A stretch of DNA of 64,000 nucleotides from Gammaproteobacteria bacterium. GTDB lineage: Bacteria > Pseudomonadota > Gammaproteobacteria > Steroidobacterales > Rariloculaceae. Under the pieces are notes generated by a model. It was not told the DNA's origin and did not search any database. It was given only the letters and a program-made list of their open reading frames with translations. Location of the stretch: assembly GCA_022826245.1 (NCBI GenBank), contig JAJDVG010000040.1, forward strand, positions 62,001 through 126,000. The letters run 5' to 3'. The translations under genes and the position numbers were made by a program. This document shows, in pieces, positions 25,592 to 61,886 of this stretch (position 1 is its first letter; every line of letters starts with the position of its first letter).

Positions 25592-27001
<1,410 letters not shown>

Positions 27002-27086
27002 TTACCTCTTCTCCATTTGATCGAAAGGGACGCGTGCGCGGCCGGCAACGGGTGCGTCGGCCGCGCGTTCGCGGTTCGTGATCGCG

Positions 27087-28481
27087 TCAGTGCCGCCGAG
27101 TTCGCCAACCCTCCGCGTATTCTTCTCTCGCGACGCGCGAGTAGGGCACGGGACTGACGATCGCCCGGATCTCCGCCTGGGCGTGACGCTCGACCGTCGG
27201 TTTCGACGAGCCGCCGTTCGCCTCTCCCCAGACGACCGTGACTTCGGTGCCCGGTGCGCTGTACCGCGTATCGACGATGCCCAAAGACAGCATCGTGCGG
27301 CCGTTGCAGGTGTAGCCGGTATAGGTCGACAGGCCGACCGTCGCACCGTCGCAGAGCACCTTGTCGTAGGGCAGCGTGGCGTAATTCGCAAGCGGCAGGT
27401 CGATGAACTTCGAGCCCTCGCTGGCGCCGAACAGCGAGCCGACAACGCGCGTGACGTCCTCGGCATTCCAGGCGAGCGACACTTTCCTGCGCGGCGGGTC
27501 CGCGGCGATTTCCTCAAGGGACTGCCGGCCGATGAATTCGTGGTCGAAGCTCACCATCGGGCCGTAACCCAGGTCGTACGGGGTCAGATAGTAGTCGGCG
27601 ATGTCGTCGGATTCGAAGCTCCCGCCAAGCGATGCTGTGCCTTCGTAGCCGTTTGCCGGCAGCCACCGGCGATAAGCCTTCGTCGCGTCGCCGCTGTAGA
27701 TTGCCGGTACCGGCGAGGGTATCCAGCCCGATTCGAGCGCGCTCGTCGAATATGCCTTCGCGCCGACCTGCCGGATGCCGAACTCCCGGCCCGCTTCGCA
27801 GATGGCGGCCCTGACCGCCTCGCCGTCCTCCCAGGGGCCGAACAATTCCCAGCCGGGCTGGCCGACCATGCCGTGGCGCAACGCGCGAACCGGCCGCCCG
27901 GCAATCCGCACGGCGTCCATGTTGAAGAACCCGATGTCCGGCGCCGGTGCTCCGGTGAGCTTGCGCATCACGTCCTGCGCGCGCGGTCCCTGGATCTGGT
28001 ACCTGTAGGCCTTGCGCAGCGGCGGTCCGGATCGGGCCGCCGAACGCTCGTCACGCTCGATCGATACGTCATATCCTTGCGTCTCGCTATGGTATTGGAC
28101 CCAGTTGTGCGCGGACGGCCGACCGACGAGATTGAAGGTATTCTCGGCGAGAAAGAACAGGATCGCATCGCCGATCACGTGACCGTCGTGGTTGCAGGCG
28201 ACGAATTGCTTGGCCTTGTCGACGGCGAAGTTCCTGACCGTGTTGACGCCGAGGTCCGACAGCAGCTTGAGCGCATCGGGACCCTCGATGTACATATCGG
28301 TCATGTGGTGCGACTGGTCGAACAGCACGGCGGTTTCCTGCCAGGCGCGCTGCTCGTCTCTCCAGTTCGTGAATTCGGGCGGTACGACGGGAAAGGCATA
28401 GGGTCCGATCTGTGAGTTACGCAGCATTTTCACCGGACTGGCGACCGTTTGTAACAGATCCTCCAGACTTCGTCGGCTCAT
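27087..28481 (-). CDS. LigM-type tetrahydrofolate-dependent aryl O-demethylase, paralogue 2
   Basis: 464 residues, same GcvT-like fold. It keeps Arg121 (VGRPS) and Tyr244 (AKAYSTSALESGW), but differs from paralogue 1 in several substrate-side segments: PYAFPVV for AYVYPVV, GMVGQPGWELFGPW for [14 protein letters not shown], and TYTGYTCNGRTM for [12 protein letters not shown]. This suggests a different methoxylated substrate. It is transcribed with paralogue 1 (gap 94 bases) and is the promoter-proximal gene of the pair. Confidence 0.86.
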   Translation of the reverse strand: MSRRSLEDLLQTVASPVKMLRNSQIGPYAFPVVPPEFTNWRDEQRAWQETAVLFDQSHHMTDMYIEGPDALKLLSDLGVNTVRNFAVDKAKQFVACNHDGHVIGDAILFFLAENTFNLVGRPSAHNWVQYHSETQGYDVSIERDERSAARSGPPLRKAYRYQIQGPRAQDVMRKLTGAPAPDIGFFNMDAVRIAGRPVRALRHGMVGQPGWELFGPWEDGEAVRAAICEAGREFGIRQVGAKAYSTSALESGWIPSPVPAIYSGDATKAYRRWLPANGYEGTASLGGSFESDDIADYYLTPYDLGYGPMVSFDHEFIGRQSLEEIAADPPRRKVSLAWNAEDVTRVVGSLFGASEGSKFIDLPLANYATLPYDKVLCDGATVGLSTYTGYTCNGRTMLSLGIVDTRYSAPGTEVTVVWGEANGGSSKPTVERHAQAEIRAIVSPVPYSRVAREEYAEGWRTRRH

Positions 28482-30101: not shown

Positions 30102-30497
30102 ATGAAGATACGATTGGCGATGCTGGCGGTGCTCGCAACGCTCACGGTTCCCGCGTTTGAGGCTCGATCGCATCACAGCAATTCCTCGTACCAGGTCGAT
30201 GAGATCATCACGCTGGTCGGGACGGTCACGGAATGGCGCTGGTCGAATCCGCACACCTGGCTGTTCCTTACGGTCGAGGACGAGGACGGCAACGAACTCG
30301 AATGGGCCGTTGAAGGCCGTGCGCCGGGCATACTCGGCAGGGCCGGCTGGCACCCGACCGTCCTGCAGCCGGGCGAGACCGTCACGGTTCACGCGAGCCC
30401 CTCCAAGGATGGCAGCGCCGTCGGCATCATTTCACGGGTGACCAAGTCGGACGGTACGATCCTCGGCAACCGGCCCGACTTCTTCGGCGGGGAGTAG
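30102..30497 (+). CDS. exported DUF6152-family protein
   Basis: A 131-residue secreted protein: signal peptide to about residue 22, then HHSNSSYQ, the beta-rich core TLVGTVTEWRWSNPHTWLFLTV and a closing GIISRVTKSDG. This is the DUF6152 pattern (HH, GTV..., NPH.W). It is one of five such domains in the window. It is followed at 30549 by a member of a second exported family that is fused to DUF6152 elsewhere (33667-34857), so the two products probably act together. Function unknown. Confidence 0.85.
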   Translation: MKIRLAMLAVLATLTVPAFEARSHHSNSSYQVDEIITLVGTVTEWRWSNPHTWLFLTVEDEDGNELEWAVEGRAPGILGRAGWHPTVLQPGETVTVHASPSKDGSAVGIISRVTKSDGTILGNRPDFFGGE

Positions 30498-30548: not shown

Positions 30549-31346
30549 ATGCAAGCACGCGCAGTTCGAATGGCATCAGGCATGCTGACGCTCGCCGTCG
30601 GCGTGCTTCTCGCAGGACAGGTCCACGCTCAGGGTTCCGCAACCGCGGACACTGCCGAGCGCCCGGACTTCTCGGGCGTCTACTATCCCTGGAATCCGAA
30701 CGCGGCGCCGCGCCCTGAGCAGCCGCAGGCCGGGCCCTTGCCGCCGCCGACGCGCACGGGTCCGACCGGCGACGGGTCGGCCGGGCGCCGCCCGAACGAT
30801 CCGAAGCTCACGCCGGAATACCTGGCGCAGTGGGACATCATCGCGGCGTCGCGCACGGCCGGATCGTACGAATACGACAACATCGCGAACTGTCTGCCGC
30901 CGGGGATGCCGGCCATGATGAGCATGGCCTACGGCATGGAGATCATGCAGACCGAAGACAAGATCACGTTCTTCAGCGAGCACCAGGATGCCTTGCGGCG
31001 CGTCTACCTCGACGGCCGCGAGCCGACCGAACGCCACCTCAACGATCCGACCTACGCGGGGTATTCGACCGGCTATTGGGAGGGCGATACGCTGGTCGTC
31101 GACACTGTCGCGCTGACTACGAAGTCGTTCATCGACAGTTCCTCGCCGCACAGCGACCGGATGACGGTACACGAACGCATCCGTTTCATCGCGCCGGGTG
31201 TTCTTGAGGACCGGATCACCGTGAACGACCCGGTCGCCCTGCTCGAGCCCTGGGAGATCGTGCGGACTTATCGGAAGGCGGAGTACCCGAACGACGAGCT
31301 GCGCGAGTTCGCTTGCGCGGAGGGCTTGCGCGATGCGCCGCACTAG
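30549..31346 (+). CDS. exported protein with GYWEGDTLVVDT-type domain, unknown function
   Basis: 265 residues with a signal peptide (cleavage near VHAQ, about 26), then a Pro-rich stretch and a domain with YDNIANCLPPGMP, IRRVYL-like RRVYLDGREP, TGYWEGDTLVVDTV, SSPHSDRMTVHERIRF and LEDRITVNDP. The same series of motifs occurs in the products at 31509 and in the second half of 33667-34857. The pattern, sheet-rich with a conserved Trp-Asp pair, gives no catalytic clue. It lies 51 bases after the DUF6152 gene. Confidence 0.8.
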   Translation: MQARAVRMASGMLTLAVGVLLAGQVHAQGSATADTAERPDFSGVYYPWNPNAAPRPEQPQAGPLPPPTRTGPTGDGSAGRRPNDPKLTPEYLAQWDIIAASRTAGSYEYDNIANCLPPGMPAMMSMAYGMEIMQTEDKITFFSEHQDALRRVYLDGREPTERHLNDPTYAGYSTGYWEGDTLVVDTVALTTKSFIDSSSPHSDRMTVHERIRFIAPGVLEDRITVNDPVALLEPWEIVRTYRKAEYPNDELREFACAEGLRDAPH

Positions 31347-31508: not shown

Positions 31509-32501
31509 ATGACATTCAGCAGACGCAGGACGGCGTTCGGCACGTGCGCACTGCTGCTTGGCGCCGTGCCGCTTGCGGCCAGCGCGCAGTTCGGCGCCGG
31601 TTACGGGCCGCCGCTGGTGACGGTCCCGCCGCCCATGGAGTTCGAGACCTCGGCCGAGCACTATGCCTGGCTGCTCGAACAGGCCAACGGCGGCACCACG
31701 CATACTTTCGAGACCCTGCCGCGCTGGGACGGTCTGTGGCAAACCGCCGGCAATACGGCCATGGACAGTTTTGTCGATGCGCCGCGTTTCGAGGGCCAGG
31801 TTCGCGAGGGCGTGCTCACGCCCGAATACGAGGCCGCCTACAAGGAGCGCTGGCGTGAGCAGATCGAGCTCGGCGAGGTCCAGTACGATCGGCTCACGCA
31901 CTGCGAGCCACAGGGCTATCCGCGCATCCTGCTCGAGCCCTACACCCATGAGTTCATCAACCTGCCCGACCAGTCGTACTTCATCAACGATTTCGCAAGT
32001 TCCATACGGCGGATCTACATCGGCAAGGAACACACGAACATCATGGGCACGCACTCATGGTACGGCGACATCATCGGCTTCTGGGACGGCGACAGGCTCG
32101 TCACGCATACCGTCGATCTGTTGCCGGCCGACTTCACGCGCTGGGCGCCGATGACGAGCAACCAGTTCGAGTCGGTCGAAGTCTGGGAGCTCAAGTCCTA
32201 CGACGACGGCACCGAACGGCTCGAGGTCCAGGTGACGTTCTACGACTCCTTCGCGTTCGAGAAGCCCGTTCATGCCGTGTACGCCTACCGGCGCGCCGGC
32301 GACCTCGAGGACGCCGGTTACCGCGTCGTTCATTGGGAATGCGAACTCACCAACAACGCACTCATGGATGCCCAGGGATCGACGACCTACCGCCTGCCCG
32401 GCGAGGAAGGCTTCGTGGACCCGCGCGGGTTTACCCTGTTCCCGGAACTGCCCGGTCAGTCGCGCGACCCGATCTACAACACGACGCTGCCGGTCGAATA
32501 A
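31509..32501 (+). CDS. exported protein with GFWDGDRLV-type domain, unknown function
   Basis: 330 residues with a strong AAGGAGG site and a signal peptide (ASAQ, about residue 27). Its C-terminal part aligns by eye with the products at 30549 and 33667: FASSIRRIYIG, IIGFWDGDRLVTHTVDL, MTSNQFESVEVWELKSY, ERLEVQVTFYDSFAFEKP. It also has an N-terminal section with FETLPRWDGLW absent from the shorter relatives. The DUF6152 gene 12 bases downstream makes this the mirror order of the 30102-30549 pair. Confidence 0.8.
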   Translation: MTFSRRRTAFGTCALLLGAVPLAASAQFGAGYGPPLVTVPPPMEFETSAEHYAWLLEQANGGTTHTFETLPRWDGLWQTAGNTAMDSFVDAPRFEGQVREGVLTPEYEAAYKERWREQIELGEVQYDRLTHCEPQGYPRILLEPYTHEFINLPDQSYFINDFASSIRRIYIGKEHTNIMGTHSWYGDIIGFWDGDRLVTHTVDLLPADFTRWAPMTSNQFESVEVWELKSYDDGTERLEVQVTFYDSFAFEKPVHAVYAYRRAGDLEDAGYRVVHWECELTNNALMDAQGSTTYRLPGEEGFVDPRGFTLFPELPGQSRDPIYNTTLPVE

Positions 32502-32513
32502 GAGGAAAGCACG

Positions 32514-32993
32514 ATGAGACGACTGCAAGACTCACTGCCGCTTGCGCTGGCCGCCGGTCTCCTGACGATGACCGCCGCGGTCGATGCGCACCATTCGTTC
32601 ACCCAGTTCGACCGCACGCGCGAGTACCTGCAAACGGGCACGGTCGTTCGTTGGGCGTTCAACAACCCGCACTCGTGGCTCTATCTCAACGTCGCCGATG
32701 AAGACGGCAACGAGACGCTCTGGAGCTTCGAGGGCTCCGGTCCGGTCTCGCTGATCAACCGCGGCATCACCGGCAGCACCTTCGAGCCCGGCGACACGCT
32801 GACGTTCATGTACTGCCCCATGGTCGACGGCCGCAACGGCGGTCACCTGGGCTGGGTCCAACTCGCGGACGGCAGCTTCATCAATCCCAGCGACGGCGGC
32901 TGCAACGGCAACGACGCCAACATCGAGCGCTGGAAGGGCTGGCTCGAGCAGGGCTTTACGTCAAACGTCGACGCGGAGGCCGCCGGCCAGTAA
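32514..32993 (+). CDS. exported DUF6152-family protein
   Basis: 159 residues: a signal peptide ending near VDA, then HHSFTQFDRTREYLQTGTVV, FNNPHSWLYLNV, a Gly-rich GSTFEPGDTLTFMY and the C-terminal NIERWKGWLEQ. It is most like the copy at 56167, with which it shares the NPHSWLY core and the IERW tail. Twelve bases separate it from the preceding exported-protein gene, so the two are almost certainly one operon. Confidence 0.85.
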   Translation: MRRLQDSLPLALAAGLLTMTAAVDAHHSFTQFDRTREYLQTGTVVRWAFNNPHSWLYLNVADEDGNETLWSFEGSGPVSLINRGITGSTFEPGDTLTFMYCPMVDGRNGGHLGWVQLADGSFINPSDGGCNGNDANIERWKGWLEQGFTSNVDAEAAGQ

Positions 32994-33666: not shown

Positions 33667-34857
33667 TCATTGACGAGGCCCGAGTTCGGCGTCGTCGTCG
33701 AGGGTCAGATCGTTGCAGACCTCCGGGCTGTAACCAAACTCCGCGACGTCGAGTGCGTCGCTGCCCGTCTGGGTCTCGTTCCAATAGAGAGGATCTTCGG
33801 CCGTGTACTCGCGCCGCAATTGCGTCGTTTCGGGATCGAAGCGGAATCGTTCGACGACCTGAAGCTGCTCGCTGTGCGGCGCGCGCCGCCGGAACAGTCC
33901 GGCTTCGAAGCCGACCGTGTCGACGACGAGCACATCGTCTTCCCAATAGCCGATCGAATGGCCGACCCGGCTCGGCTCGATGTCCGCCGGGTGTTCGACC
34001 ATGTCCATGTGGATCGTGCGCTCGATCCCGAGCCGGCCGTATTGGATCAGAATCGTGTCGACGCGCTGGGTCACCCGATTTATCGGTTCGCCGGACCACT
34101 CCGAGACGATACTCGAAAAGACGCATGAGCGCGCATATCGTTCCTCGTCCGCGAGGGCCGCGAGCGCTTCCTGGCCCGCGTTGCTCAGCCAGTCGGGCGG
34201 CGGAAAGTTAAAGCCCGAGCGCTCCTCTTCGGTGCCGGCGGCACGCGCCTGTGCTTGCGGCGTGCCACGCGCACCGGGGATCGCCTGTTGCCCTTCGGGC
34301 AAGCCGCCGACGCCGAAATCGTTCGCCTGGCTCAACGGTACCAGCGTGCCGAGCTGGCCGCGCGGATCCGTCATGACGCGCTGCTCGGTTGCCCAGTCGC
34401 CGGAGATGTTGGGCTCGCCGTTGGCGAGCCGGAGCGGCCGCTCACCCTCCTCGGCGGGCGCGGGCGGAGTGATCTGTCCGTAGCGGTCGAGGCTGCTGCC
34501 GTCGTCGAAGATGACGGTGCTCACGTAGCAGGAATACGGGTCGTCGCGATCGGGCGAACCGGTGATCGTGACTTCCTGACCGACAGGGAAGAGTTCCGGA
34601 GTCCATCCGGAGCGGCGCAGCGTATTGGCGGACCGCATCTCGCAGCGGAAGGCCACAACTGCGCCGTCCTGCACGACATCGAGGTAGAGCCAGGAATGCG
34701 GGTTGACGAAGTCAAGATCCGTGACCGTCCCCGTAATCTCCACGTCCTCGTCCATCACGAACGTGCCGAATCCGTGGTGCGCGACTGCGGTCGTTACGGT
34801 CGCGGCAAGAAAGGCGGGCGCCGCCAGCGCGATGGCGAAGGTTTGACCGGTAGGCAT
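33667..34857 (-). CDS. exported fusion of DUF6152 and GYWEDDVLVVDT-type domains
   Basis: 396 residues. A signal peptide is followed by a DUF6152 domain (HHGFGTFVMDEDVEITGTVT, FVNPHSWLYLDV, about residues 26-125), a Pro/Ala-rich linker, and the second exported family (RYARSCVFSSI, RTIHMDM, SIGYWEDDVLVVDTVGFE, APHSEQLQVVERFRF, LRREYTAEDP, about 215-380). The same two domains are separate neighbouring genes at 30102/30549 and 31509/32514, so this fusion is direct evidence that they belong to one system. Confidence 0.82.
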   Translation of the reverse strand: MPTGQTFAIALAAPAFLAATVTTAVAHHGFGTFVMDEDVEITGTVTDLDFVNPHSWLYLDVVQDGAVVAFRCEMRSANTLRRSGWTPELFPVGQEVTITGSPDRDDPYSCYVSTVIFDDGSSLDRYGQITPPAPAEEGERPLRLANGEPNISGDWATEQRVMTDPRGQLGTLVPLSQANDFGVGGLPEGQQAIPGARGTPQAQARAAGTEEERSGFNFPPPDWLSNAGQEALAALADEERYARSCVFSSIVSEWSGEPINRVTQRVDTILIQYGRLGIERTIHMDMVEHPADIEPSRVGHSIGYWEDDVLVVDTVGFEAGLFRRRAPHSEQLQVVERFRFDPETTQLRREYTAEDPLYWNETQTGSDALDVAEFGYSPEVCNDLTLDDDAELGPRQ

Positions 34858-35951: not shown

Positions 35952-37496
35952 TCAGGCGCCGCCGTCGGCGGCTCGTCTCAGAATCTCCACGACCTCGTCG
36001 AAAACCTCGTCTTCCCGGCCGCCGAGATTTTCCTGCGCCGCGTCGAGCGGCGATCTGCCGAGCGCGTCCACCACGTCGATCGCGGCCCCCTGCGCGAGCA
36101 GATGCTCGATGACGCGCGTCCAGCCGAAGCGGATGGCGCCGTAGAGCGCGGTCTGGCCCTCGCGGTCCGTCATCGAGTTCCTGCGGGCGATGCGCGCGGT
36201 CCGGCTGCTGACATCGGTGACCCGGGCATTGATGTCGGCGCCCGCGGCCAGCAGGATGTCGAGGGTCGCGATCACGCGCGTCTCGACATCGCCGCGGAAA
36301 TCGAGCCTGCGGTCACTGCGCGACACGCCCATGCCCGCGGCCCCCATGAGCGGCGTGACGCCCATGACGTTCGGCAGATCCACGACCGCGCCGTGATCGA
36401 GCAGTGCGCGCACGGTCCCGGTGTCGTGGCCGATCGCCGCACGCAGCAGCGGGGTGGCGCCCGTGGTGAGCAGGTTGTCCCTGAAACGGCTGCTGTTGCC
36501 GCCTCGGCCCGGTCGCAGCATGTTGAGTTGCGGGTTCGGGTCCACGTCCGCGTCGAGCAGCATCCGGACGATGTCACCGGGCGTCGTCTCGTCAGCGATC
36601 GCGGGCATCGCCGGGCCCGTGTTCGCGCCGTTGTACGAACTCATGTCGACGGCGGCGTAAAGCGGCGTGCGCCCCCACCAGTCCTGGATATTCGGGTTCG
36701 CGCCGTTCTCGAGCAGCAGCCTGGCCGTGTCGTAGCTGAAGTTGTCGAAGGCCACGAGCACCGGGGTCACGCCGTCGGGGTTAGGCTGGTTCACGTCGGC
36801 GCCCGCGGCGACGATGGCCGCGGCGCAGGCCGTGCAGCGCGAGCGCGCGGCATACAGTAGCGGTGTCAGCCCTCCGGTCGGCCGGTACTGGGCGCGCGGT
36901 TCGGAAGTGATCTGCACGGTCCAGTCGTGGGCAAGCGCCTGCACGTTGACCTCGGCGCCGTTGTCGATGAGGAACTCGACGACATCCGCGGCCTGCGCGT
37001 CCGCCGCCCACATGAGCGCCGTCTGGCCGCGCCATGACTCGCGCGCGTTGACGTCGGCGCCGTGCGCGATTAGCAATTGCGCGACTTCGAGCGAGCCTGC
37101 GCGCGCACTCAGCATGAGCGCCGTCTGGCCTTCCTCGTTGGCCGCCTCGACGTCGGCGCCGGCAGTGAGCAGCATTCCGACGAGTTCGACGTTTGCGGTC
37201 TTGACGGCTTCGGCCAACGGGCTCGAACCGTAGCGGTTCGTGACGTCCGGCCTTGCCCCGCTGGCGAGCAGCGCTTCGACGAGTTCCGTGTCGAGCCGGT
37301 AGACGGCCCAGTGCAGCGGCGTCGTGCCGTCGCCCTGCGCCGCGTTGACGTCGGCGCCGCCGCGTATGGATTCGAGCGCCGAGTCGAGATCGCCGCGCTG
37401 AATCAGGTCCGCCAGCGTGCCGTCGGCGAGGACGGGCCCTGCATGGAGCAGCAGCAGGCTCGCCGAAAGCGCCGGGATTACCTGTCGGATCGCCAT
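35952..37496 (-). CDS. exported ankyrin-repeat protein, module 1
   Basis: 514 residues: a signal peptide (ending near LAD, about 25), then roughly ten ankyrin repeats with typical units such as GDGTTPLHWAVYRLDTELVEALLASGA (landmark) and GQTALMLSARAG. Longer insertions occur before repeats 6 and 8. Ankyrin repeats bind proteins and give no activity. It follows the DUF1592 and DUF1552 genes of the same strand (gap 112 bases), and a similar gene accompanies the second DUF1552/DUF1592 pair. Confidence 0.88.
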   Translation of the reverse strand: MAIRQVIPALSASLLLLHAGPVLADGTLADLIQRGDLDSALESIRGGADVNAAQGDGTTPLHWAVYRLDTELVEALLASGARPDVTNRYGSSPLAEAVKTANVELVGMLLTAGADVEAANEEGQTALMLSARAGSLEVAQLLIAHGADVNARESWRGQTALMWAADAQAADVVEFLIDNGAEVNVQALAHDWTVQITSEPRAQYRPTGGLTPLLYAARSRCTACAAAIVAAGADVNQPNPDGVTPVLVAFDNFSYDTARLLLENGANPNIQDWWGRTPLYAAVDMSSYNGANTGPAMPAIADETTPGDIVRMLLDADVDPNPQLNMLRPGRGGNSSRFRDNLLTTGATPLLRAAIGHDTGTVRALLDHGAVVDLPNVMGVTPLMGAAGMGVSRSDRRLDFRGDVETRVIATLDILLAAGADINARVTDVSSRTARIARRNSMTDREGQTALYGAIRFGWTRVIEHLLAQGAAIDVVDALGRSPLDAAQENLGGREDEVFDEVVEILRRAADGGA

Positions 37497-37608
37497 CGTC
37501 TCACCTCACCCCGTCGACCGATCGAGAGCGGCCGTAAATCCTGCCCCCGGCATTTCCTCGAACTCAAGCGTGACTCGGTGACGTCGCGCGGCCCACATGC
37601 CCCGGCCC

Positions 37609-38955
37609 TCACACGCCCGCGATCTCGCCCGTGCTGTCGGCGAAGCTCCGCATCTCGAGCCCGACCTTGTTGAGCACCGTGAGATGCAGGTTCGCAAGCG
37701 TCGTACGCTCGGGCAGATCGATGTGCCGCCCGCCCGCGAGCGTACCCGCGCCGCCGCCGACGAGGATCGTCGGCAGAGGATAGTTGTTGTGCCGGTCGCT
37801 GTTGCTCATGTTCGATCCGTACATGAGCAGCGAGTTGTCGAACAGCGAACCCTCGCCGTCGGGAATCGAGTCGAGCTTCGCGACGAAGTCCGCGAAGCGC
37901 TCGACGTGGTAGCGCTGGATTCGGGCGAGCTTGAGCAGCCGGTCGACGTTGTTGGCATGGTGCGACAGCGGATGGAACGCATCGGACACGCCGATGTGGT
38001 TGTACGTCCGGTTCGTGCCTTCGGCCACCATGATGTACGACGCGACACGCGTGAGATCCGCCTGGTAGGCGAGCGCGATCAGGTCGAACATGAGCCTGAC
38101 CTGCTCGTCGAAGGAATCGAGTTCGCCGATCGGCGCCTCGGGTACTTCGATGGCGGACAGGTCGCGCTGCTCGGCAAGTTCGACGCGGCGCTCGATCTCG
38201 CGCACGGTGTCCAGATAGTCGCCCAGCAACGCCCGGTCACTCGCGCTCAGGCGCCGCTGCAAGGCATGCGTGCGCTCCGAGATCAGGTCGAGAATGCTCT
38301 TCGTCTGCCGCGCGAGCGCCTCGCGTTCCTCGGGCGTATCGCCTTCGCCGAAGAGCTGCGCGAACACCTTGCGCGGATTGAATTCCATCGGCAAGGGCGT
38401 CGAGGCATTGCGGAACGACAACGTGGAGCTGTAGTAGCAGGCGCCGCCGCCCGAGCAGGCCGCGACCTGGATCGTGGTTTCCGAAGCGACCTCGAGCGAG
38501 GGTAGCGCGGTACCCTGGCCGATATGCCCGGCGATGATCTGATCGACCGTCGGCGCCATGCTCGCGGCGCGCTGACCCTGGTCCGGTGCGACGCCGCTGA
38601 GCCAGGTCGCCGGCGTCGTGGTATGTACGGTGTTTCGAGCAGCCTTGTTTTCGAGGTAGCCGAACGATGTCAGCTTGTGCTTGTAGGCCTCGAGCGGCTC
38701 GAGGATCGGGCTCAGCCTGAAGTCGGCGCCGGACCCGCTCGGCGTCCAGTGATCGAGTTCCGCGCCGTGAGCCGTGTTCCACATGATCGCGCCATGCGGG
38801 ATGTAGAAGAAGCCGGCGCGCAGTTTCGGCGCGGCGGCGGTCTGGGCAAGGGCGGTCGCTGCCGGGATCATCGCATCGAGCAGCGGCAGCCCGACCGAAA
38901 TGCCGGCGCCCTTGAGCAGGGTTCTACGGGACAGGTGCTTCTTCGTGAGATACAT
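37609..38955 (-). CDS. Tat-exported DUF1552 protein, module 1
   Basis: 448 residues. The N-terminus (KKHLSRRTLLKGAGISVGLPLLDAMIPA) is a Tat signal, so the protein is exported folded. The rest is the DUF1552 family, common in Planctomycetes and some proteobacteria and always found beside DUF1592-type cytochromes. Features are AGFFYIPHGA, TVDQIIAGHIG, CSGGGACYYS and SLLMYGSNMSNSDRHNNYPLPTILVGG, the last resembling alkaline-phosphatase-superfamily relatives such as DUF1501. It ends module 1 in front of the ankyrin gene. The reaction is unknown. Confidence 0.88.
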   Translation of the reverse strand: MYLTKKHLSRRTLLKGAGISVGLPLLDAMIPAATALAQTAAAPKLRAGFFYIPHGAIMWNTAHGAELDHWTPSGSGADFRLSPILEPLEAYKHKLTSFGYLENKAARNTVHTTTPATWLSGVAPDQGQRAASMAPTVDQIIAGHIGQGTALPSLEVASETTIQVAACSGGGACYYSSTLSFRNASTPLPMEFNPRKVFAQLFGEGDTPEEREALARQTKSILDLISERTHALQRRLSASDRALLGDYLDTVREIERRVELAEQRDLSAIEVPEAPIGELDSFDEQVRLMFDLIALAYQADLTRVASYIMVAEGTNRTYNHIGVSDAFHPLSHHANNVDRLLKLARIQRYHVERFADFVAKLDSIPDGEGSLFDNSLLMYGSNMSNSDRHNNYPLPTILVGGGAGTLAGGRHIDLPERTTLANLHLTVLNKVGLEMRSFADSTGEIAGV

Positions 38956-38969
38956 GAACCTTCCCCCCG

Positions 38970-41459
38970 TCAGTTGAGCCGCGCTGCGCCGGCCGGTGGC
39001 GCGGCGGCCGCTCGCAGTTCGTCCGTTTCGGTTTCGTCGGCGGGCGCCTGCATGCGGAACGCGTCGCTGTTGACGATTCCCGTAACGATCGCCGACAGGC
39101 GGTAATCCTGCCCGGCGGCGGCCCGCACCACGGCGCGAACCTGTGGCATGTCATGATACTCAAGCTCGCGGCCGAGCGCGTACATCATGAGTTTCTCGGT
39201 CAGGGCCTGCACGAACTGATCGGAGCGGCCGAGCAGGGCTTCGCGCAGTTCTGCCGGGCCGTCAACGGCAATACCGCCGGGCAAGTCCGTATTTGCGTCG
39301 ATCGGCGCGTCGGCGAGTTCGTCGAAGTCGCGCCACTGGCCGGTCACGGTGAAATTCTCAAGCGCTAGCCCATAGGGATCGATCACGCCGTGGCAGCCGT
39401 TGCAGTTCGGCGCCTCGCGATGTTGTTCGAGGCGCACGCGGACCGTTTTCGGCTGCTCGCCTTCCGGTGTCGTGAGGTCGGTCTCGACGTTCGGCGGCGG
39501 CGGCGCGGGCGGAGTACCCATGAGTTTTTCGAGCACCCAGGCGCCGCGCAGCACCGGTGAAGTTCGATCCCCGTAGGAGGTGCGCAGCAGCACGGCCGCC
39601 TTGCCGAGCAGGCCGCGGCGGTAGTCGTCCTCGAGCACGACGCGGCGGAACTGCGGGCCGCGCACCGAGTCGATGCCGTAGTGCTCCGCGAGCCGTTCGT
39701 TGAGGAAAGTGTGATCGGCCGTGAGCAGCGTGCGCACGTTACGCTCCTCGAGCAGCACGCTGGCGATAAAGAGCTCCACTTCGGTCGCGAAGTCGGCGCG
39801 CAGTTCGTCGCTGAAGTCCGGGAACAGGCGCTCGTCGGGCTCGACGGCCTCGAGTTCGTCGATATTGAGCCAGCGCAGCGCAAAGCCGGTGACGAGCGCT
39901 TCGGCGCGCGGGTCGGCGAGCATGCGGCGAATCTGCGCTTCGACGACTCCGGGGTCGCCGAGTTGTCCGGAGCTTGCGAGTGCGAGCAGTTCCTCATCGG
40001 GACCCTGGCTCCAGAGGAAGAACGACAGCCGCGTCGCGATCTCGAGGTCGCTGAGCGCGTGGAGGTCCGCGCCATCGCGGTCCTCCGGCGGAACGATCGC
40101 CCGGTACAGGAACTCGGGGCTTGCAAGGATAGCCGTCAGGAGTTGCTCGACACCGGTGTCGAAGGCGCCTTCGCCGCCGCCGGCTGATTCCCGGCCTGCA
40201 GCGTAGAACGGCATGAGCCGGTCGATATCGTCCTGGTCGACAGGCCGGCGGTATGCGCGCCGGGCCAGGTTCGCGGCGATGCGTTCGGCGCAGGCCCGTT
40301 CCCGTTCCGCGACCTCGGGCTCGCAGATGAAGACTTTCTCCCGGCTGGCCGTGCGCGACACGCCGGTCGGTTCGAACGGCCCCACGATCTCGATGCCGCC
40401 GATCACGCGCGGCACGCGCATCTGACCCGAAAAACTGAAGCCCCCGTACGGGGTGAAGCCATAGACCGTGCCGTCGGTCGCCGCTTGCGAGCGCTCGATG
40501 AAGGTCACGACGACCTCATGCACGCCGGCCGTGACCTGCACGGGGATATCGGCGAACCGCTGCATGAGTTCGGCCCGCGCCGGCGCGCCGCCGCGATTGA
40601 CGGATTCGAGGTCGTCCATGCCGCCGAGCCGCGCGCGGAACACCTCGTTTCGATCCACGAGGACGACGAGCGTGTGCTCGGTCTCGAGCGAACGGGGATA
40701 AAGCCCGACGTCGAGGTCGGTGATGTTGATCCGGTACCGGCCGTCGGCCGGGAAGACGTGCGTGAACATCGTACCGCCGCGCGTGCCGAGCGGCATGCCG
40801 TCGACGTAGCCGTCCTGGTCGCCGCCCGGCGGCGGGAAATAGACGCTTGCGAGCTTCGGTCGGGATTCGCCGACGGCAAGACGTGCAACGGTTCGCGCCG
40901 TACTGATGTATTGCTCGAGAAATGCGGGCGAGACGGTCAATGCGGCGGCGATATTGCTGAAGCCCTCGACCTCGATGTCCGTGGGCAGGTACTCCACCGG
41001 ATCGATCTCGACGCCGAGCAGGTCCCTGACCGCCGTGGCGTATTCCGTGCGGGACAGCCGCTGAACGGGTACGTGGCCCGCCACCGGCGCCTCGCTGCCG
41101 GTATCGATCGTCCGTTCGAGCCAGCCGACGAAGCTGTCGATGCGAGATTCCTCCGGGCGCGGGCTGCCGGGCGGCGGCATGAGACGGCCGCGCAGCTTGC
41201 GCACGGCCGCTTCGAAGGTTTCGGCGTGCTCCGGGACGGCGTCAGGCGTCAGCCCTTCGAACACGATGCCGCCCGCAAACTCGGCTTCGTTGTGGCACTC
41301 CGTGCAATAGGATTCGAGCAGGCTCCAGTGCTGCGCGGGACGGTCGGCAAGCGGCGCAAGCAGATAGACGCCGATCGCGCCCGCAACGACCGCTCCGGAC
41401 ATGCCGGCCGTAATCAGAACCTTGCGTGTTTGCCTGGTTGCGAGCATCCGATCAAGCAT
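38970..41459 (-). CDS. DUF1587/1592/1588/1585 multidomain cytochrome c-like protein, module 1
   Basis: About 829 residues, exported or membrane-anchored through an N-terminal helix (VLITAGMSGAVVAGAIGVYLLA). Two heme c sites are visible: CTECH (52-56) and CNGCH (686-690). Between them are PMPPGSPRP-like (LMPPPGSPRPEE), DUF1587, the carbohydrate-binding-like DUF1595 region and the DUF1592 and DUF1588 segments (LATRLSFFLWSQGPDEELLALA, FLNERLAEHYGID), with DUF1585 at the end. Start chosen at ATG 41459. Only 14 bases separate it from the DUF1552 gene. Probably an envelope electron carrier or oxidase subunit. Confidence 0.87.
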   Translation of the reverse strand: MLDRMLATRQTRKVLITAGMSGAVVAGAIGVYLLAPLADRPAQHWSLLESYCTECHNEAEFAGGIVFEGLTPDAVPEHAETFEAAVRKLRGRLMPPPGSPRPEESRIDSFVGWLERTIDTGSEAPVAGHVPVQRLSRTEYATAVRDLLGVEIDPVEYLPTDIEVEGFSNIAAALTVSPAFLEQYISTARTVARLAVGESRPKLASVYFPPPGGDQDGYVDGMPLGTRGGTMFTHVFPADGRYRINITDLDVGLYPRSLETEHTLVVLVDRNEVFRARLGGMDDLESVNRGGAPARAELMQRFADIPVQVTAGVHEVVVTFIERSQAATDGTVYGFTPYGGFSFSGQMRVPRVIGGIEIVGPFEPTGVSRTASREKVFICEPEVAERERACAERIAANLARRAYRRPVDQDDIDRLMPFYAAGRESAGGGEGAFDTGVEQLLTAILASPEFLYRAIVPPEDRDGADLHALSDLEIATRLSFFLWSQGPDEELLALASSGQLGDPGVVEAQIRRMLADPRAEALVTGFALRWLNIDELEAVEPDERLFPDFSDELRADFATEVELFIASVLLEERNVRTLLTADHTFLNERLAEHYGIDSVRGPQFRRVVLEDDYRRGLLGKAAVLLRTSYGDRTSPVLRGAWVLEKLMGTPPAPPPPNVETDLTTPEGEQPKTVRVRLEQHREAPNCNGCHGVIDPYGLALENFTVTGQWRDFDELADAPIDANTDLPGGIAVDGPAELREALLGRSDQFVQALTEKLMMYALGRELEYHDMPQVRAVVRAAAGQDYRLSAIVTGIVNSDAFRMQAPADETETDELRAAAAPPAGAARLN

Positions 41460-41611
41460 AGAACCCCGCATCGATCCCGTCCAGATTGACTGACAACTAC
41501 AAACCCCAATCTGCCGCAAGCCAAAGGGAGGTGCGCGCGGAGCTCTCGATCCAATCCACGCAATCGCGTCGCGCACTCCCGATCCTCCGACCCCAATTCG
41601 CGATTAGTCAA
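41460..41611. other. intergenic, nothing further recognised
   Basis: The divergent gap of about 395 bases between the module-1 operon and the methyltransferase gene starts here. Apart from the palindromic element and a degenerate arm that follow, I see no gene, tRNA or clear promoter in it. Confidence 0.5.
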
Positions 41612-46527: not shown

Positions 46528-48963
46528 CTACTCCCCGCTTGTCGCGATTGTGACAGCCCCGTCGCCCTCAGGAAGGTTTCGGCGCATCTGGAACGGGAAG
46601 CTGTCGACTATGGCCAATATTATAGATTCCAAACTGTAATTTTGGCTAGCTGCATTCCTGACGACTTGCCTTACGATCGGCATGTCAGCCGGCTCGAGCC
46701 CTCGCCCGAGGGCGTAGATCATGAGTTTCTCGGCGACGGTGCCGGCGAAGAGCTCGGGATCCGCCAGAAGGGCGTCGCGAAGCTCGGCCGGACCGTTGAC
46801 GACGGTACCGTCGGCCAGTACGCCGGCGGCGTCGATCTCGAGGCCCTGCCGATTGACCTCGCGCCATTGACCGACGGCGTTGAAATTCTCGAGAGCGAAG
46901 CCGACCGGGTCGATATTGTCGTGGCAGGAAGCACAGGCAGGATTCGCCCGGTGCAGCTCGAGCTGCTCGCGTACCGTGCTCGGGCGGCCCTCGGGAATGC
47001 TCTCCTCGAGATCGGGCACCTCGTCCGGCGGCGCGGGCGGCGGGTTGTTCCAGAATTCGGAGACGAGAAACTTGCCGCGCACGATCGGTGAGGTCCGTGT
47101 GCCTTGCGAAGTCAACGACAGCAGGCTGCCGTGGCCGAACAGACCCCAGCGATTGGGATCCTCGAGATCGACGCGGCGGAAACGCTGACCGTACACGCCG
47201 TCGATGTCGTAGTGGCGCGCCAGGCGCTCGTTGAGGAACGTGTAGCCAGCCTGCATGAGTTCGTGCACGGGCAGGCCTTCCCTGAGCACGTGCCCGAACA
47301 GCATCTCGGTCTCGCGGCGCATCGCCTGACGCAGGTTGTCGTCGAAGTCCGGGAACATGAGCAGGTTGGGTCGGACTCGCGAGTCGAGGTTCCTGAGCTG
47401 CAGCCATTGACCCGTGAAGTTCTCGACGAGCGCATCGGAGCGGCTGTCGGCGATCATGCGCCCGACCTGCGCCTCGAGCACGCCCGGTTCCCTGAGCCGC
47501 CCCTGTTCGGCCAGCTCGAGCAATTCATCGTCCGGGATGCTCGACCAGAGGAAGAACGACAGGCGCGACGCGAGCTCGATGTCGTTGACCGGATGCGTGG
47601 AGCCGCGCGGCACGTCGGGCGATTCGGTCTCGGACCGGAACAGGAACCAGGGGCTGACGAGTATGCGCGACACGGCGGCGTGGATACCGGCATCGAAGTC
47701 GCCGCCAAGGGCGCGCTCGTCGTCGTAGAACGCGAGCGGCGAGGCGATGTCCTCGGCGGTCACCGGCCGCCTGAAGGCGCGGCGGGCCAGCGTCGTGACG
47801 ATCTCCTCGGCGCAGGCCGATTCGTCGGCCGCCGATGCGGGCTCGCACACGAAGATGCGCTCGCGGGTCGCCATCTCGCTCACGCCCGTGATGTCGAACG
47901 GCCCCTCGACATAGGCAAGCTCAAGCCTCGGCATGCCCGAGGGGTTGTGGATTTCGAGCGAGGCCCGATCGACGCGTTCCCAGACGCTCTGGTCGACGCC
48001 CGTCCGCTCCCGCCAGGTCAGGGCGACCGTGTGCGGGCCGGCCGTGACCGAGACCGGCACGGAGGTAAGGCGCGGGTCGATATCGAACTGCAGAGTGTTG
48101 AAGCCTTCGTCGAGCGCAAGCTGGTGATCCTCGGGTCCGCCGATTTCGGCCGTGTACACGACCTCGTCGTCGAGCAGCACGAGGAATTCGTGCGGCCGGT
48201 CGTGGCCTTCGACGCCGAACAGCCCCTCCTCGACGCCGCGCAGGAGCCGACCGCCGAAAATGTACTGGCCGTCGGCCGGGAAGTAGTGCGTGACCTCGAT
48301 GCCGCCGCGCGTGCCGAGCGGCAGGCCCGCCATGTGGTAATCCTGGGTGGTGTCGAAGGGAATGGTGTAGGTGGCGCGGGCCGGCAGCGCTTCGGGGTTG
48401 CCCATGGCCATGTCGGTGACCCGCAGGGCGACCGCGAGGTAACGCTCGAGCAACAGCGGCGTGGTTGTCAGGAGGTCGGCGATATTGTCGAAGCCGAAAT
48501 CGCCGCCGTCGCTAGGCAGCAGTTCCGTCAGATCGGCCTCGATGCCGAAGAGATCGCGGATCGCATTCGCGTATTCGGCGCGATTGAGGCGGTGTACCTT
48601 CGTCGAGCTAGCATACGGTTCTGCGAAGGCCGCCGCGTCGAGCGTCTCGGTGAGTGCGTTGACGAACTCGATCCTGGCTTCGGGCTCCGGTTGCGGGCCG
48701 TCGCGCGGCGGCATGACGCCGAGCGTGAGTCTGCGGCGGATCTCTTCGAACAAGCCGGAATTGGCATGAACGTCGTCGAGCGTCACGCCCTCGAGCGACA
48801 TGCCGCCCGTGAATTCGGTGTCGTTGTGGCATTCGACGCAGTAGGCATCGAGCATCTGCCAGTTCCGCGCGAGCACGGCTTCGGGCTGCCCGCTCGTGTG
48901 GACATAAGCCGCGAAGCCGCCGGCGACGACTACGGCGCCGCCGGCGTAAATCCAGTGCCTCAC
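46528..48963 (-). CDS. DUF1587/1592/1588/1585 multidomain cytochrome c-like protein, module 2
   Basis: 811 residues with an N-terminal membrane segment (HWIYAGGAVVVAGGFAAYV) and two heme c motifs, CVECH (42-46) and CASCH (677-681). Domain order is the same as in the module-1 product, including LMPPRDG-like (VMPPRDGPQPEPE), LASRLSFFLWSSIPDDELLELA and FLNERLARHYDID. Its start overlaps the ankyrin stop by 4 bases (ATGA), and the DUF1552 gene begins 5 bases after its stop, so the three are tightly coupled. Confidence 0.87.
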   Translation of the reverse strand: MRHWIYAGGAVVVAGGFAAYVHTSGQPEAVLARNWQMLDAYCVECHNDTEFTGGMSLEGVTLDDVHANSGLFEEIRRRLTLGVMPPRDGPQPEPEARIEFVNALTETLDAAAFAEPYASSTKVHRLNRAEYANAIRDLFGIEADLTELLPSDGGDFGFDNIADLLTTTPLLLERYLAVALRVTDMAMGNPEALPARATYTIPFDTTQDYHMAGLPLGTRGGIEVTHYFPADGQYIFGGRLLRGVEEGLFGVEGHDRPHEFLVLLDDEVVYTAEIGGPEDHQLALDEGFNTLQFDIDPRLTSVPVSVTAGPHTVALTWRERTGVDQSVWERVDRASLEIHNPSGMPRLELAYVEGPFDITGVSEMATRERIFVCEPASAADESACAEEIVTTLARRAFRRPVTAEDIASPLAFYDDERALGGDFDAGIHAAVSRILVSPWFLFRSETESPDVPRGSTHPVNDIELASRLSFFLWSSIPDDELLELAEQGRLREPGVLEAQVGRMIADSRSDALVENFTGQWLQLRNLDSRVRPNLLMFPDFDDNLRQAMRRETEMLFGHVLREGLPVHELMQAGYTFLNERLARHYDIDGVYGQRFRRVDLEDPNRWGLFGHGSLLSLTSQGTRTSPIVRGKFLVSEFWNNPPPAPPDEVPDLEESIPEGRPSTVREQLELHRANPACASCHDNIDPVGFALENFNAVGQWREVNRQGLEIDAAGVLADGTVVNGPAELRDALLADPELFAGTVAEKLMIYALGRGLEPADMPIVRQVVRNAASQNYSLESIILAIVDSFPFQMRRNLPEGDGAVTIATSGE

Positions 48964-56063: not shown

Positions 56064-56166
56064 ACGGGCATAATCGAGGCCGGGCGCCGTACGGCAGGAT
56101 CAACGCTTGCGGGTTCACGGATCGCCGGCCCCATCTGACACGCGACAAGAAACGGGAAATCAGCCG

Positions 56167-56646
56167 ATGAAGAAAACGATTGCAGTATTCGCCGCAGTGG
56201 CCTCCGCTGGCATCGCGCTCGGTGCGGGATCCGCGCTGGCTCACCACTCCTTCGCCATGTTCGATCTGTCGCAGCACATGCTGGTCGAAGGCACGATCAC
56301 GGATTGGCACTTCAACAATCCCCATAGCTGGTTGTACATCGACTCGCCCGATGCGGACGGCGAGGTGCAGCAGTGGGGCTTCGAGGGCGCGGCCCGCGTG
56401 CACGCCATACGTCAGGGCGTCGACGGCACCACTTTCAGGCAGGGCGAGTTCGTCAGGGTCGTCATGAGCCCGCTGCGCGATGGCCGGCTCGCCGGCGCGA
56501 TCTGTTTCGTCGTCAAGGAAGACGAGTCCATCGTCCAGCCGAACGACGGTGTCTGCAACGCGCCCCAGACGATAGAGCGCTGGCAATCCAACGGTTGGCT
56601 CGAAAACGCCGCCAACCTCGATATTCATCCGGCTGCGGACGAATAG
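56167..56646 (+). CDS. exported DUF6152-family protein
   Basis: 159 residues: signal peptide MKKTIAVFAAVASAGIALGAGSALA, then HHSFAMFDLSQHMLVEGTI, FNNPHSWLYIDS, TTFRQGEFVRVVMSPLRDGR and TIERWQSNGWLE. It is nearly the same length as the copy at 32514 and the most similar to it. It follows the VOC gene by 103 bases. No second-family gene is adjacent here. Confidence 0.85.
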   Translation: MKKTIAVFAAVASAGIALGAGSALAHHSFAMFDLSQHMLVEGTITDWHFNNPHSWLYIDSPDADGEVQQWGFEGAARVHAIRQGVDGTTFRQGEFVRVVMSPLRDGRLAGAICFVVKEDESIVQPNDGVCNAPQTIERWQSNGWLENAANLDIHPAADE

Positions 56647-59739: not shown

Positions 59740-60153
59740 TCAGTGGGCTCCCGGAGCTGTCAGGCCCGACGCGTTGCCGTAGGTCGTGCCCTCGGCGTTG
59801 ATCGCGCCGCGCAGATTTCCGGCGGGCCGGCCGTCCTTGAGCGGATTGGTCCTGATCGTCACCGCGTCGCCGGGTTGCCAGAAGTTCGGTGAGATGCCGG
59901 AGCGGCGCAGCCGGGGCGGCGCGCCGAGTTCGAATCCCCATTCGGTTTGCGAGCCGTCATCGTTCTCGACGTTGACGTATAGCCAGGAGTGCGGATTCAG
60001 ATAGTCGAAACGCGTCACGACGCCGGTCAGCGTGAGTTCGACCTGGTCGTCGAACATGGCCGCCGAATGGTGCGCCATTGCGGGCGTCAGCAGCAGCCCG
60101 GCGACCAGCGCGGCACCGAAAGTCAGTGATTTTGCAGCGATAGCGGATTTCAT
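59740..60153 (-). CDS. exported DUF6152-family protein
   Basis: 137 residues: signal peptide (LLLTPAMA), HHSAAMFDDQVELTLTGVVTRF, YLNPHSWLYVNV, GAPPRLRRSGISPNFWQPGD and NPLKDGRPAGN. It is closer to the DUF6152 half of the fusion at 33667 (RRSGWTPELFPVG corresponds to RRSGISPNFWQPG) than to the copies at 32514 and 56167. It follows the carboxylesterase gene on the same strand by 80 bases. Confidence 0.85.
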   Translation of the reverse strand: MKSAIAAKSLTFGAALVAGLLLTPAMAHHSAAMFDDQVELTLTGVVTRFDYLNPHSWLYVNVENDDGSQTEWGFELGAPPRLRRSGISPNFWQPGDAVTIRTNPLKDGRPAGNLRGAINAEGTTYGNASGLTAPGAH

Positions 60154-60233
60154 GGTCTCAAGTCTCCTCTTGCAGCTCGTACAGTATCGATTGTCCGTGG
60201 CGGCGAATTCAAGATTGCCGGAATCGGTGCGGT

Positions 60234-61886
60234 TCAGGTCGCGGCACTGCGAAGTGTAGCAAGCGCGAGCCGCTCTTCCCGGTTCGGGTCGTTGGCGACC
60301 CTGACCTCGTCGCCGAACATCATCGTCGGCAGCTCGGTCGGGTTGAACGCCGGCCAGTGCGGCATGTCCGGGTGGTCCGGGTTGCCGTTGCGGGCGAACG
60401 CGGCCCAGGCGGCGCTCATGACGTGACCGAGTTCGTAGCGTGACTGCGACGAACCCGTCATCGACGCGCCGATATCCATGTTGTAGAACACGAACGGTAT
60501 TTCGAGCGTGTGGTACGACCCCATGCGGTTGTTGTGCACGGGCGAGTACCAGTCGAAGAAATACAGGTAGCTCGGCGCGCCGCCCTGCTCGTGCTTGAGC
60601 CGGCCGAGCGCTTGCGCGTTCCAGCGCCGGGTGTTGTCCGATTCGGCCGTGAGCCAGAGCATCTGGTTGCGTTTTTCCGGATGCAGCCGCTTGTAGAGAT
60701 CGAGCAGCTTGCGGCCTTCTTCCTCGTCGTTGTTCGCAAGCTCGACGACGAAGTTCCTCAGCATGTCCTCGTCGGAGAGTTCGTACGGCGGCGGGCCGAC
60801 CCAGCCGTCCTCGGTTTCGGTCGAGCCCATCATGAACGGCACGTTCGCCGACCAGGGCGGGGCGGTCGGATCCCACTGGTTGCGCGGCAGGATGTTGCCG
60901 TCGACGACCGGGCCGTTGCCGAGGCCCTGGATCCGGGGCTCGCTGTAATAGGCGTCCTGGATCTGCTCGATCGTCATCGTCTGCAGCCGGTCGAGTTCGT
61001 CGTTGCCGACCCCGAGCTTGGCGAGGAAGCGCTCGGCCGCTTCGCTCGCATCGGCGCCCGACATGCCCCTGAAGCGCGAGCCGCTTTGCGCGATCGAGCG
61101 GTGGAACAGCCCTTCGGCGGACGGCATGGCCATCAGTGTCGTCGTCTTTCCGCCGCCGCCCGACTGACCGAAAATCGTGACGCGGTCGGGGTCGCCGCCG
61201 AAGTTCTCGATGTTGTCGCGCACCCATTCGAGAGTCGCCACGAGATCCTGAACGCCGACGTTCGTCGATTGCGCCCACTTCTCGCCGCCGATGTCCGCCA
61301 GGTGCAGGAAACCGAAGATGTTCAGGCGATGGTTGACCACGACGACGACCACATCTTCTTTTTTGGCCAGATTCGTGCCGTCATAGAGCAGGTAGTTGCC
61401 GGAACCGGCCGAGAAGCCGCCACCGTGCATCCAGACCATGACGGGCCGTGCGGCGTTGTCGAGCGCGGGCGTGAACACGTTGACCGTGAGGCTGTCTTCG
61501 CCCTGGGCGCTCAGGCGGTTCAATGCCGTGACGACGGGCGCCGGTTCCTCGGCGTCGGGCGCGATGACCGCGTTGTTGCTGATCTGGAAGTGGTCGCGCA
61601 CGCCGCTCCAGGGCGCCGGCGGCCGCGGCGGCATGAAGCGGTTCGCGCCGGCCGTCGACGCGCCGTAGGGCAGGCCCCAGAACTGCTGCACGCCGTCCTT
61701 GATGAGCCCGCGAACCCGGCCGTAGCGCGTCAGGGCGATGTCGCCGACGGTCGTGAGGCGCATGTCCTGCGCCAGGAGGCGCGTTGCCGCGCCGCCGGCG
61801 AGAAGCCCGGCGGTTGCCAGCCCGCCCGTTCCGAGAAAGGCTCGACGGTTTATCCCGGATTGCTTGTCAAACGGTACTCGGTACAT
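60234..61886 (-). CDS. exported carboxylesterase type B
   Basis: 550 residues with a Tat-like leader (NRRAFLGTGGLATAGLLAGGAATRLLAQ, landmark). The alpha/beta-hydrolase landmarks are HGGGFSAGSG (oxyanion hole) and FGQSGGGG with nucleophile Ser242, where GQSGG replaces the usual GESAGG. EIPFVF after a His in YHTLEIPF marks the C-terminal half. It cleaves carboxylic esters, possibly aromatic ones given the neighbours. GGGGGAA precedes ATG 61886. Confidence 0.87.
   Translation of the reverse strand: MYRVPFDKQSGINRRAFLGTGGLATAGLLAGGAATRLLAQDMRLTTVGDIALTRYGRVRGLIKDGVQQFWGLPYGASTAGANRFMPPRPPAPWSGVRDHFQISNNAVIAPDAEEPAPVVTALNRLSAQGEDSLTVNVFTPALDNAARPVMVWMHGGGFSAGSGNYLLYDGTNLAKKEDVVVVVVNHRLNIFGFLHLADIGGEKWAQSTNVGVQDLVATLEWVRDNIENFGGDPDRVTIFGQSGGGGKTTTLMAMPSAEGLFHRSIAQSGSRFRGMSGADASEAAERFLAKLGVGNDELDRLQTMTIEQIQDAYYSEPRIQGLGNGPVVDGNILPRNQWDPTAPPWSANVPFMMGSTETEDGWVGPPPYELSDEDMLRNFVVELANNDEEEGRKLLDLYKRLHPEKRNQMLWLTAESDNTRRWNAQALGRLKHEQGGAPSYLYFFDWYSPVHNNRMGSYHTLEIPFVFYNMDIGASMTGSSQSRYELGHVMSAAWAAFARNGNPDHPDMPHWPAFNPTELPTMMFGDEVRVANDPNREERLALATLRSAAT

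Follow-up and report, generated by a model that had tools for sequence, protein, structure and literature searches.

DUF6152 and a predicted barrel domain form a co-amplified, repeatedly fused pair and a putative exported module in Gammaproteobacteria and Acidobacteria

The gene at 33667–34857 (-) of the window, which is the whole 64,000-nucleotide stretch of DNA analysed here, encodes a 396 aa fusion protein. Its open reading frame, profile matches and structure model indicate a signal peptide, an OB-like DUF6152 domain and a second domain, here named B, that is predicted to be a barrel resembling animal fatty-acid-binding proteins (FABP). The two domains belong to a large paralogous family that probably constitutes an exported two-part module, in which DUF6152 would be a metal clasp and B a barrel for a hydrophobic ligand. 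Both families are uncharacterised, and one lacks a Pfam model; together they account for around 200 matches in one genome of 3.6 Mb, and their joint amplification extends beyond a single phylum. With the histidine signature of DUF6152 and the barrel prediction for B, the biochemistry of two domains whose function is unknown becomes open to test. Neither of these features, nor the size of the expansion, was seen in the initial annotation of this DNA.

Results

The predicted signal peptide of the fusion protein spans residues 1–26 (34780–34857 (-)). Its end, assigned by eye from the motif, is TTAVA, followed directly by His27-His28. These are residues 1 and 2 of the mature chain (34774–34779 (-)) and are invariant in the fusion alignment. 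An Asn-Pro-His at residues 52–54 (34696–34704 (-)), containing an invariant PH, provides mature His28. The DUF6152 domain extends over residues 19–112 by profile (34522–34803 (-)), and the Pfam DUF6152 model (PF19649) matches residues 17–105 with an E-value of 2.4e-21. The remainder of the protein, approximately 270 residues, corresponds to B and matches no Pfam or NCBIfam model. By profile, B covers residues 126–393 (33679–34482 (-)) and includes two cysteines that are invariant in one alignment, Cys245 and Cys381, which are residues 219 and 355 of the mature chain. The gene is, as initially annotated, a fusion of DUF6152 to a second domain, and the product is predicted to be exported.

The second domain is also present alone in the window, in each case beside a separate DUF6152 gene, as had been noted before. 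The free B gene at 30549–31346 (+), encoding 265 aa, has as its partner a 131 aa DUF6152 gene at 30102–30497 (+), in which ARS is followed by HHSN. The 330 aa B gene at 31509–32501 (+) is the partner of a 159 aa DUF6152 gene at 32514–32993 (+), in which VDA is followed by HHSF. Both free DUF6152 proteins were identified with Pfam, and with the fusion the three score 76.1, 100.2 and 83.6 bits against PF19649 (Pfam cut-off 27 bits). Two further DUF6152 genes are found in the window. That at 56107–56646 (+) has HH and NPH and no B gene nearby, and that at 59740–60160 (-) is also without B, its start being estimated from the signal peptide within an over-long ORF (59740–61278). This ORF and others such as those of loci L028 and L033, in which DUF6152 appears to lie far from the ORF start, are over-extended frames with a signal-like stretch preceding an internal HH.

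Homology of the three B proteins was established by searches independent of the iterated B profiles, which had been seeded with the three B sequences of the window, so that their E-values are not independent proof. With the 31509 protein as a phmmer query the 30549 protein is found at an E-value of 7.7e-14 among 2823 ORFs. A profile of 31 free-standing B proteins, from which the fusion was excluded, finds the second half of the fusion at 5.7e-34; the part matched, C59:95730–96431, is 33730–34431 of the window. These two results rule out non-homology, and the fused B and the 30549 B are predicted to have the same fold when modelled separately. In the 31509 protein the motifs previously quoted for the second domain have been lost as such (GFWDGDRLVTHT; neither PHSEQ nor ERFRF is present), therefore its membership of the family rests on the profile rather than on these motifs.

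Two other MAGs carry the same fusion (88% and 83% identity), and in them tRNA-Met and B genes are nearby in the same order. In one of these (L061), ORFs of matching size occur in the order fusion, an ORF of about 217 aa, a DUF6152-sized ORF, B, tRNA-Met and B; in the other (L060), a B gene and tRNA-Met are at the same places as around the fusion in the window. Against the two relatives the fusion gene has dN/dS values of 0.135 and 0.153, indicating that it is under purifying selection.

The source genome (3.6 Mb, 62 contigs) contains 91 matches to PF19649, 90 of which are above the Pfam cut-off, and 117 matches to the B profile. The B figure counts matches rather than genes, because a few matches are split or lie at the end of a contig. 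Pairing was assessed in 59 stretches around the DUF6152 matches together with the window. Iterated profiles identified 91 DUF6152 ORFs and 102 B ORFs there, 25 of which are the same ORF. A further 50 DUF6152 genes have a B gene on the same strand within 600 nt and 16 are neither fused nor adjacent by this measure; for three DUF6152 genes, the nearest B within 600 nt is on the opposite strand. By chance, about 2.3 of the 66 unfused DUF6152 genes would be expected to have a same-strand B neighbour, compared with the 50 observed.

The two domains have also diverged together. Mirror-tree comparison of the 50 unfused pairs gave a correlation of 0.575 (shuffled maximum 0.223) and that of the 25 fusions 0.657, with none of 1000 shuffles as high in either case. 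Fusion has happened repeatedly: in a tree of 100 B domains from the source genome the label, fused or alone, changes six times, with at least three changes forced by well-supported branches. Duplication of linked genes can, without any contact between the products, be a source of co-divergence and adjacency. The shared function or physical contact proposed in the initial annotation is supported by the genome-wide pairing, the co-divergence, the repeated fusion and the joint copy numbers described below. Identity averages 33% between DUF6152 paralogues and 25% between their B partners.

DUF6152 comes first in all 137 fusions seen, 25 from the source genome and 112 from loci L060–L138, the latter obtained with the fusion as query and so biased towards fusions. 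Where the two genes are adjacent on one strand, B lies upstream of DUF6152 in 36 cases and downstream of it in 16. The constant order in the fusions could be explained by a need for a free DUF6152 N-terminus. B is not obligatory for DUF6152, since 16 of the 91 have no same-strand B within 600 nt and a remote subfamily pairs with DUF6644 instead. The 140 nearest neighbour genes belong to 170 Pfam families with no more than six members each, and the eight largest neighbours were also varied, so there is no fixed operon partner besides B. A phage origin of the module was discarded, as none of 40 pattern matches in viral contigs is a relative.

Within the taxonomic family, B and DUF6152 were both present in each of the 21 other genomes searched, DUF6152 in 4 to at least 95 copies; neither was found in 17 genomes from other families of the order. 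Copy numbers across genomes come from a limited number of scored candidates in each (9, 16, 69, 95 or 150, depending on the search), and values at the limit are therefore lower bounds. Fourteen genomes were reached through loci, of which seven are given here with the labels of their records: 'Candidatus Rariloculus versatilis' (L061; 76 DUF6152 and 102 B matches), Gammaproteobacteria MAG p16x57bins.13 (L060; 98 and 142), Acidobacteria MAG p16x34bins.10 (L062; 88 and 130), an Arenicellaceae MAG (L109; 100 and 93), Rhodospirillaceae MAG Ww577 (L111; at least 150 of each), a Terriglobia MAG (L135; 45 and 127) and a Woeseiaceae MAG (L098), which with 2 of each is the lowest of the 14. DUF6152 and B are thus co-amplified in Gammaproteobacteria and Acidobacteria. 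Across 20 hand-picked genomes whose counts stayed below these limits or nearly so, genomes at a limit being left out, and in which the B counts come from two different profiles, the copy numbers of the two domains are correlated (Spearman 0.77).

Within a sample of 299 genomes from the phylum, the source genome included, 31 have DUF6152, mostly as one copy, and 10 have B, for which nine candidates per genome were scored. Eight of the nine other genomes with a strong DUF6152 match (E<1e-20) have B, the exception being G048, and none of the 21 with only weak DUF6152 matches has it. The tenth B genome (G321) was discounted, having no DUF6152 and a weak match with two stops (E 8e-4). In the fetched stretches B adjoins or is fused to DUF6152 in G324, G326, G279, G185, G297, G193, G165 and G169.

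All 91 DUF6152 copies of the source genome have HH directly after what resembles the end of a signal peptide. Signal peptides and HH starts were judged by sequence pattern. Among DUF6152 ORFs from many genomes HH is present in 267 of 269; in 259 of these 267 it directly follows A, G or S, and in 259 a hydrophobic stretch precedes it. Exceptions are L078, in which AHH is encoded just upstream of the chosen ORF start and which was counted as HH, and L135, which is without HH and has NPR for NPH and Asp for Glu. In the SignalP training set, 2.6% of mature chains start with histidine (PMC12537917), so the HH start of DUF6152 is far from background.

The histidine of NPH (H28) is conserved together with this start. 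Among 296 distinct DUF6152 sequences it is kept in 288 of 288 with HH and in four of the eight without, the other four having R, R, S or A (Fisher p 2.2e-7, ignoring kinship). A tree of 16 rows, in which the HH label and the H28 label each change twice, places the losses of H28 among the HH-less rows. The HH-less copies form a single subfamily, and independent losses are few. Of 287 HH proteins, 255 have Glu47. The pattern of conserved residues suggests that HH and H28 are the signature of a histidine-brace-like, N-terminal-histidine metal site on a predicted OB fold.

Relatives of L135 were sought in 121 genomes of its class, of which 33 had a match, and more HH-less fusions were found. The acidobacterial DUF6152-B fusions of L135 (6524–7771 (+)) and L159–L169 include eight without HH, with Q at the mature start, some of which also lack NPH. 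Two of the eight have lost Glu as well, and the reading frames are intact. In 10 of 11 stretches (L159–L168, the short L169 being the one without) an intact free DUF6152 with HH and NPH adjoins the fusion, degenerate or not. The HH-less fusions beside intact DUF6152 look like pseudo-subunits paired with an intact copy.

The mature fusion protein was modelled with AlphaFold2 from 88 rows with a mean pLDDT of 91.5 and a pTM of 0.89, both domains being confidently modelled together; residues 1–10 have a mean of 75. A DUF6152-B interface is predicted, in the fusion only. For the N-terminal domain, within the model of the whole fusion, the best Foldseek matches are OB folds (LysRS, PriB and SSB). 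His28 and Glu47 should be at the same end of this predicted OB barrel because of the hairpin order of strands 30–37 and 40–47. The best structure matches of the modelled fused B are iLBPs of the FABP/CRABP type (Z 9.3, rmsd 4.3, 122 aligned). The free B at 30549, modelled separately (pLDDT 86.4, pTM 0.82), is predicted to resemble retinol-binding protein 1 (Z 9.7, rmsd 3.4, 120 aligned). Nearly all of the 50 structure matches listed for each B model are iLBPs, with Z of 8.6–9.7 for the free B and 8.3–9.3 for the fused B among the matches listed and identities of 10–21%. The VIA-align rows for the fusion model covered the barrel alone, hence the N-terminal domain was barely probed by that comparison.

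Conservation in B was determined from 250 rows, after removal of those with fewer than 195 domain residues. Cys219 is present in 100% and Cys355 in 99% of these, and in the GxW of the first strand G is conserved in 88% and W in 92%. GxW is a calycin signature. None of 31 B proteins matched a calycin Pfam family at E<=5, and searches of the PDB for sequence relatives of the proteins gave only chance-level matches. The models suggest that B is an FABP/retinol-binding-protein-like barrel with a disulfide.

Among the 140 nearest neighbours in the source genome, PQQ dehydrogenase domains are the commonest (6), followed by FAD_binding_4 (4) and metallo-beta-lactamase (3), and the largest neighbours include two TonB receptors, two RND pumps and a PSD1/PSCyt2 protein. 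No copper gene was found as a steady neighbour of the cassettes in the neighbour scans. In the phylum sample, outside the class of the window, PQQ dehydrogenases are directly upstream of B-DUF6152 in G169 and G193, and TonB receptors are directly upstream of B-DUF6152 genes in G165 and G193, bordering B-DUF-DUF-B cassettes. A conserved block of TonB receptor, B, DUF6152, DUF6152 and B is found in two genomes elsewhere in the phylum (L145 1392–7739 and L147 11010–16260). In L145 a cytochrome b561-YceI fusion comes next, YceI being a further barrel that binds lipid.

Other gene groups of the window may be recorded here. A row of genes at 35952–41576 encodes an ankyrin-repeat protein, DUF1552 and DUF1592/1588/1585/1587/1595 (PSD) proteins. 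A related protein at 46531–48963, together with homologues grouped in clusters of 5 to 7 in fetched stretches, suggests that this PSD-type set is also repeated in the genome. At 25592–28481 (-) are two tandem, related proteins of around 465 aa which, as an impression from the sequence, have the look of folate-dependent aminomethyl- or O-demethylase-type proteins.

A remote subfamily of DUF6152, mostly present as a single copy (L149–L158 and L007 3989–4855), has the same HH and PH signature in all 10 fetched examples and is followed by DUF6644-like small membrane proteins. Seven of nine partner candidates scanned match DUF6644 (E<0.001), two of these seven above the Pfam cut-off. The most divergent DUF6152 of the source genome (C9:94033) is likewise followed by a DUF6644-like protein (C9:94381, below the cut-off), and in G326 a DUF6152-B fusion has DUF6644 two genes on. 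DUF6644 may be the ancestral partner of DUF6152, with B taking over in the amplified lineages, although this order of events is inferred.

Discussion

In the mechanism proposed here, DUF6152 would have an OB fold and, after signal-peptide cleavage, a mature chain starting with His-His. This start, the invariant histidine of NPH and the mostly conserved glutamate would hold a metal, most likely copper, in a manner like a histidine brace. B would be a disulfide-bearing barrel of the FABP/retinol-binding-protein kind with a helical lid, binding a small hydrophobic molecule, and the two domains would work jointly, either in the periplasm or extracellularly. The fold similarity of B to iLBPs is itself no demonstration of a ligand. 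The metal end would be constant while the barrel varies, therefore the approximately 100 copies would cover different ligands.

Both redox chemistry and metal capture are possible roles for the metal, as known proteins with an N-terminal histidine include both (PMC10952591, PMC12537917). We lean slightly towards chemistry or ligand processing over capture or carriage, because a plain metal carrier would not need some 100 diverged copies. In the alternative, which is possible but somewhat unlikely, DUF6152 would be a periplasmic metal binder for capture or delivery in the style of CopC or the anglerases. B would then be a barrel for carrying or docking, perhaps of a metal-ligand complex. This alternative would suit the DUF6644 membrane proteins beside the low-copy subfamily and the most divergent DUF6152 of the source genome, an arrangement recalling CopC with CopD, and also the TonB receptors found at the borders of cassettes in G165 and G193. 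The characterised N-terminal-histidine families DUF4198 and the anglerases are moreover read as metal-binding or capture proteins (PMC12537917). However, a single metal would hardly account for so many diverged copies in a genome; the amplified copies have B, and not a transporter, as their constant partner; and just two of the seven DUF6644 matches exceed the cut-off.

A more specific form of the catalytic reading is speculative and considered unlikely. Here DUF6152 and B would be secreted mononuclear copper oxidases or oxygenases of a new class, in which an OB-fold histidine-brace DUF6152 acts on small hydrophobic molecules presented by B. The roughly 50–150 pairs per genome would then be a P450-like substrate repertoire shared by Gammaproteobacteria and Acidobacteria, and the acidobacterial fusions with a dead clasp would be pseudo-subunits, retaining the barrel but relying on the metal of the intact neighbour. 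A catalytic pair would mean that a large oxidative repertoire has so far escaped discovery.

It is also conceivable, if quite improbable, that there is no metal, HH and NPH being structural (for example in signal-peptide processing or domain packing) and the pair being a ligand-binding or adhesive surface module. The eight acidobacterial fusions that have kept intact frames after losing HH, and in two cases Glu, are consistent with this. Yet histidine is near-universal in DUF6152 at a mature position where it is otherwise rare (2.6%, PMC12537917), H28 varies only where HH is gone, and an intact HH/NPH DUF6152 adjoins the fusion in 10 of the 11 stretches of the HH-less subfamily.

The PQQ and FAD_binding_4 neighbours in the source genome, with the PQQ dehydrogenases upstream of B-DUF6152 in G169 and G193, raise the prospect of an accessory or electron-transfer module for periplasmic dehydrogenases (PQQ alcohol dehydrogenases, FAD oxidases), with B presenting the substrate. 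This is very doubtful: few cassettes have such a neighbour, and most neighbours differ from one another. That the fusion is a chance join or an assembly artefact, as might be feared in a draft of 62 contigs, is practically negligible and refuted by its recurrence in two MAGs with conserved gene order, its dN/dS and the 24 further fusions in the same genome.

Comparison with known systems

The literature searches returned nothing on DUF6152, DUF6644 or Rariloculus, nothing useful on Rariloculaceae and nothing relevant on bacterial lipid-binding proteins. The number 6152 is absent from the main text of PMC12537917. In Pfam, DUF6152 (PF19649) is an uncharacterised domain; the DUF6152 proteins of the window and of the source genome match it, all but one of the latter over the cut-off. 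It is found here to be amplified around 90-fold and paired or fused with B, and is read as a putative N-terminal-histidine metal protein.

Known histidine-brace proteins are beta-sandwiches, the core of CopC and LPMO being an immunoglobulin-like beta-sandwich. An OB fold would be unusual for a histidine-brace protein, and if the prediction is true DUF6152 would have a histidine brace on such a fold, a combination for which no paper joining 'histidine brace' and 'OB-fold' was found in the literature searched. Histidine-brace proteins are reported to act as oxygenases or peroxygenases or to function in copper transport (PMC10952591), and the N-terminal-histidine families found by sequence include metal-capture proteins (PMC12537917). 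Like LPMO, CopC, X325/Bim1, YcnI, DUF4198, DUF6702 and the anglerases (PMC10952591, PMC12537917), DUF6152 is predicted to be exported and to have a mature N-terminal histidine and further conserved potential ligands. It differs from these in its predicted OB fold, its invariant His-His and its partner barrel. In the anglerases the N-terminal-histidine domain is on a membrane permease (PMC12537917), whereas the fusion described here carries the predicted barrel and no permease. The DUF6152-DUF6644 pairs share the histidine signature with the DUF6152-B pairs, but have a membrane partner instead of B and are usually present as one copy per genome. B itself resembles the iLBPs (FABP, CRBP, CRABP) and other calycins in its predicted barrel, in the helices between the first and second strands and in the GxW at the first strand. 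In contrast to these it is predicted to be exported, is larger at around 230 aa, has two near-invariant cysteines and matches no calycin Pfam family.
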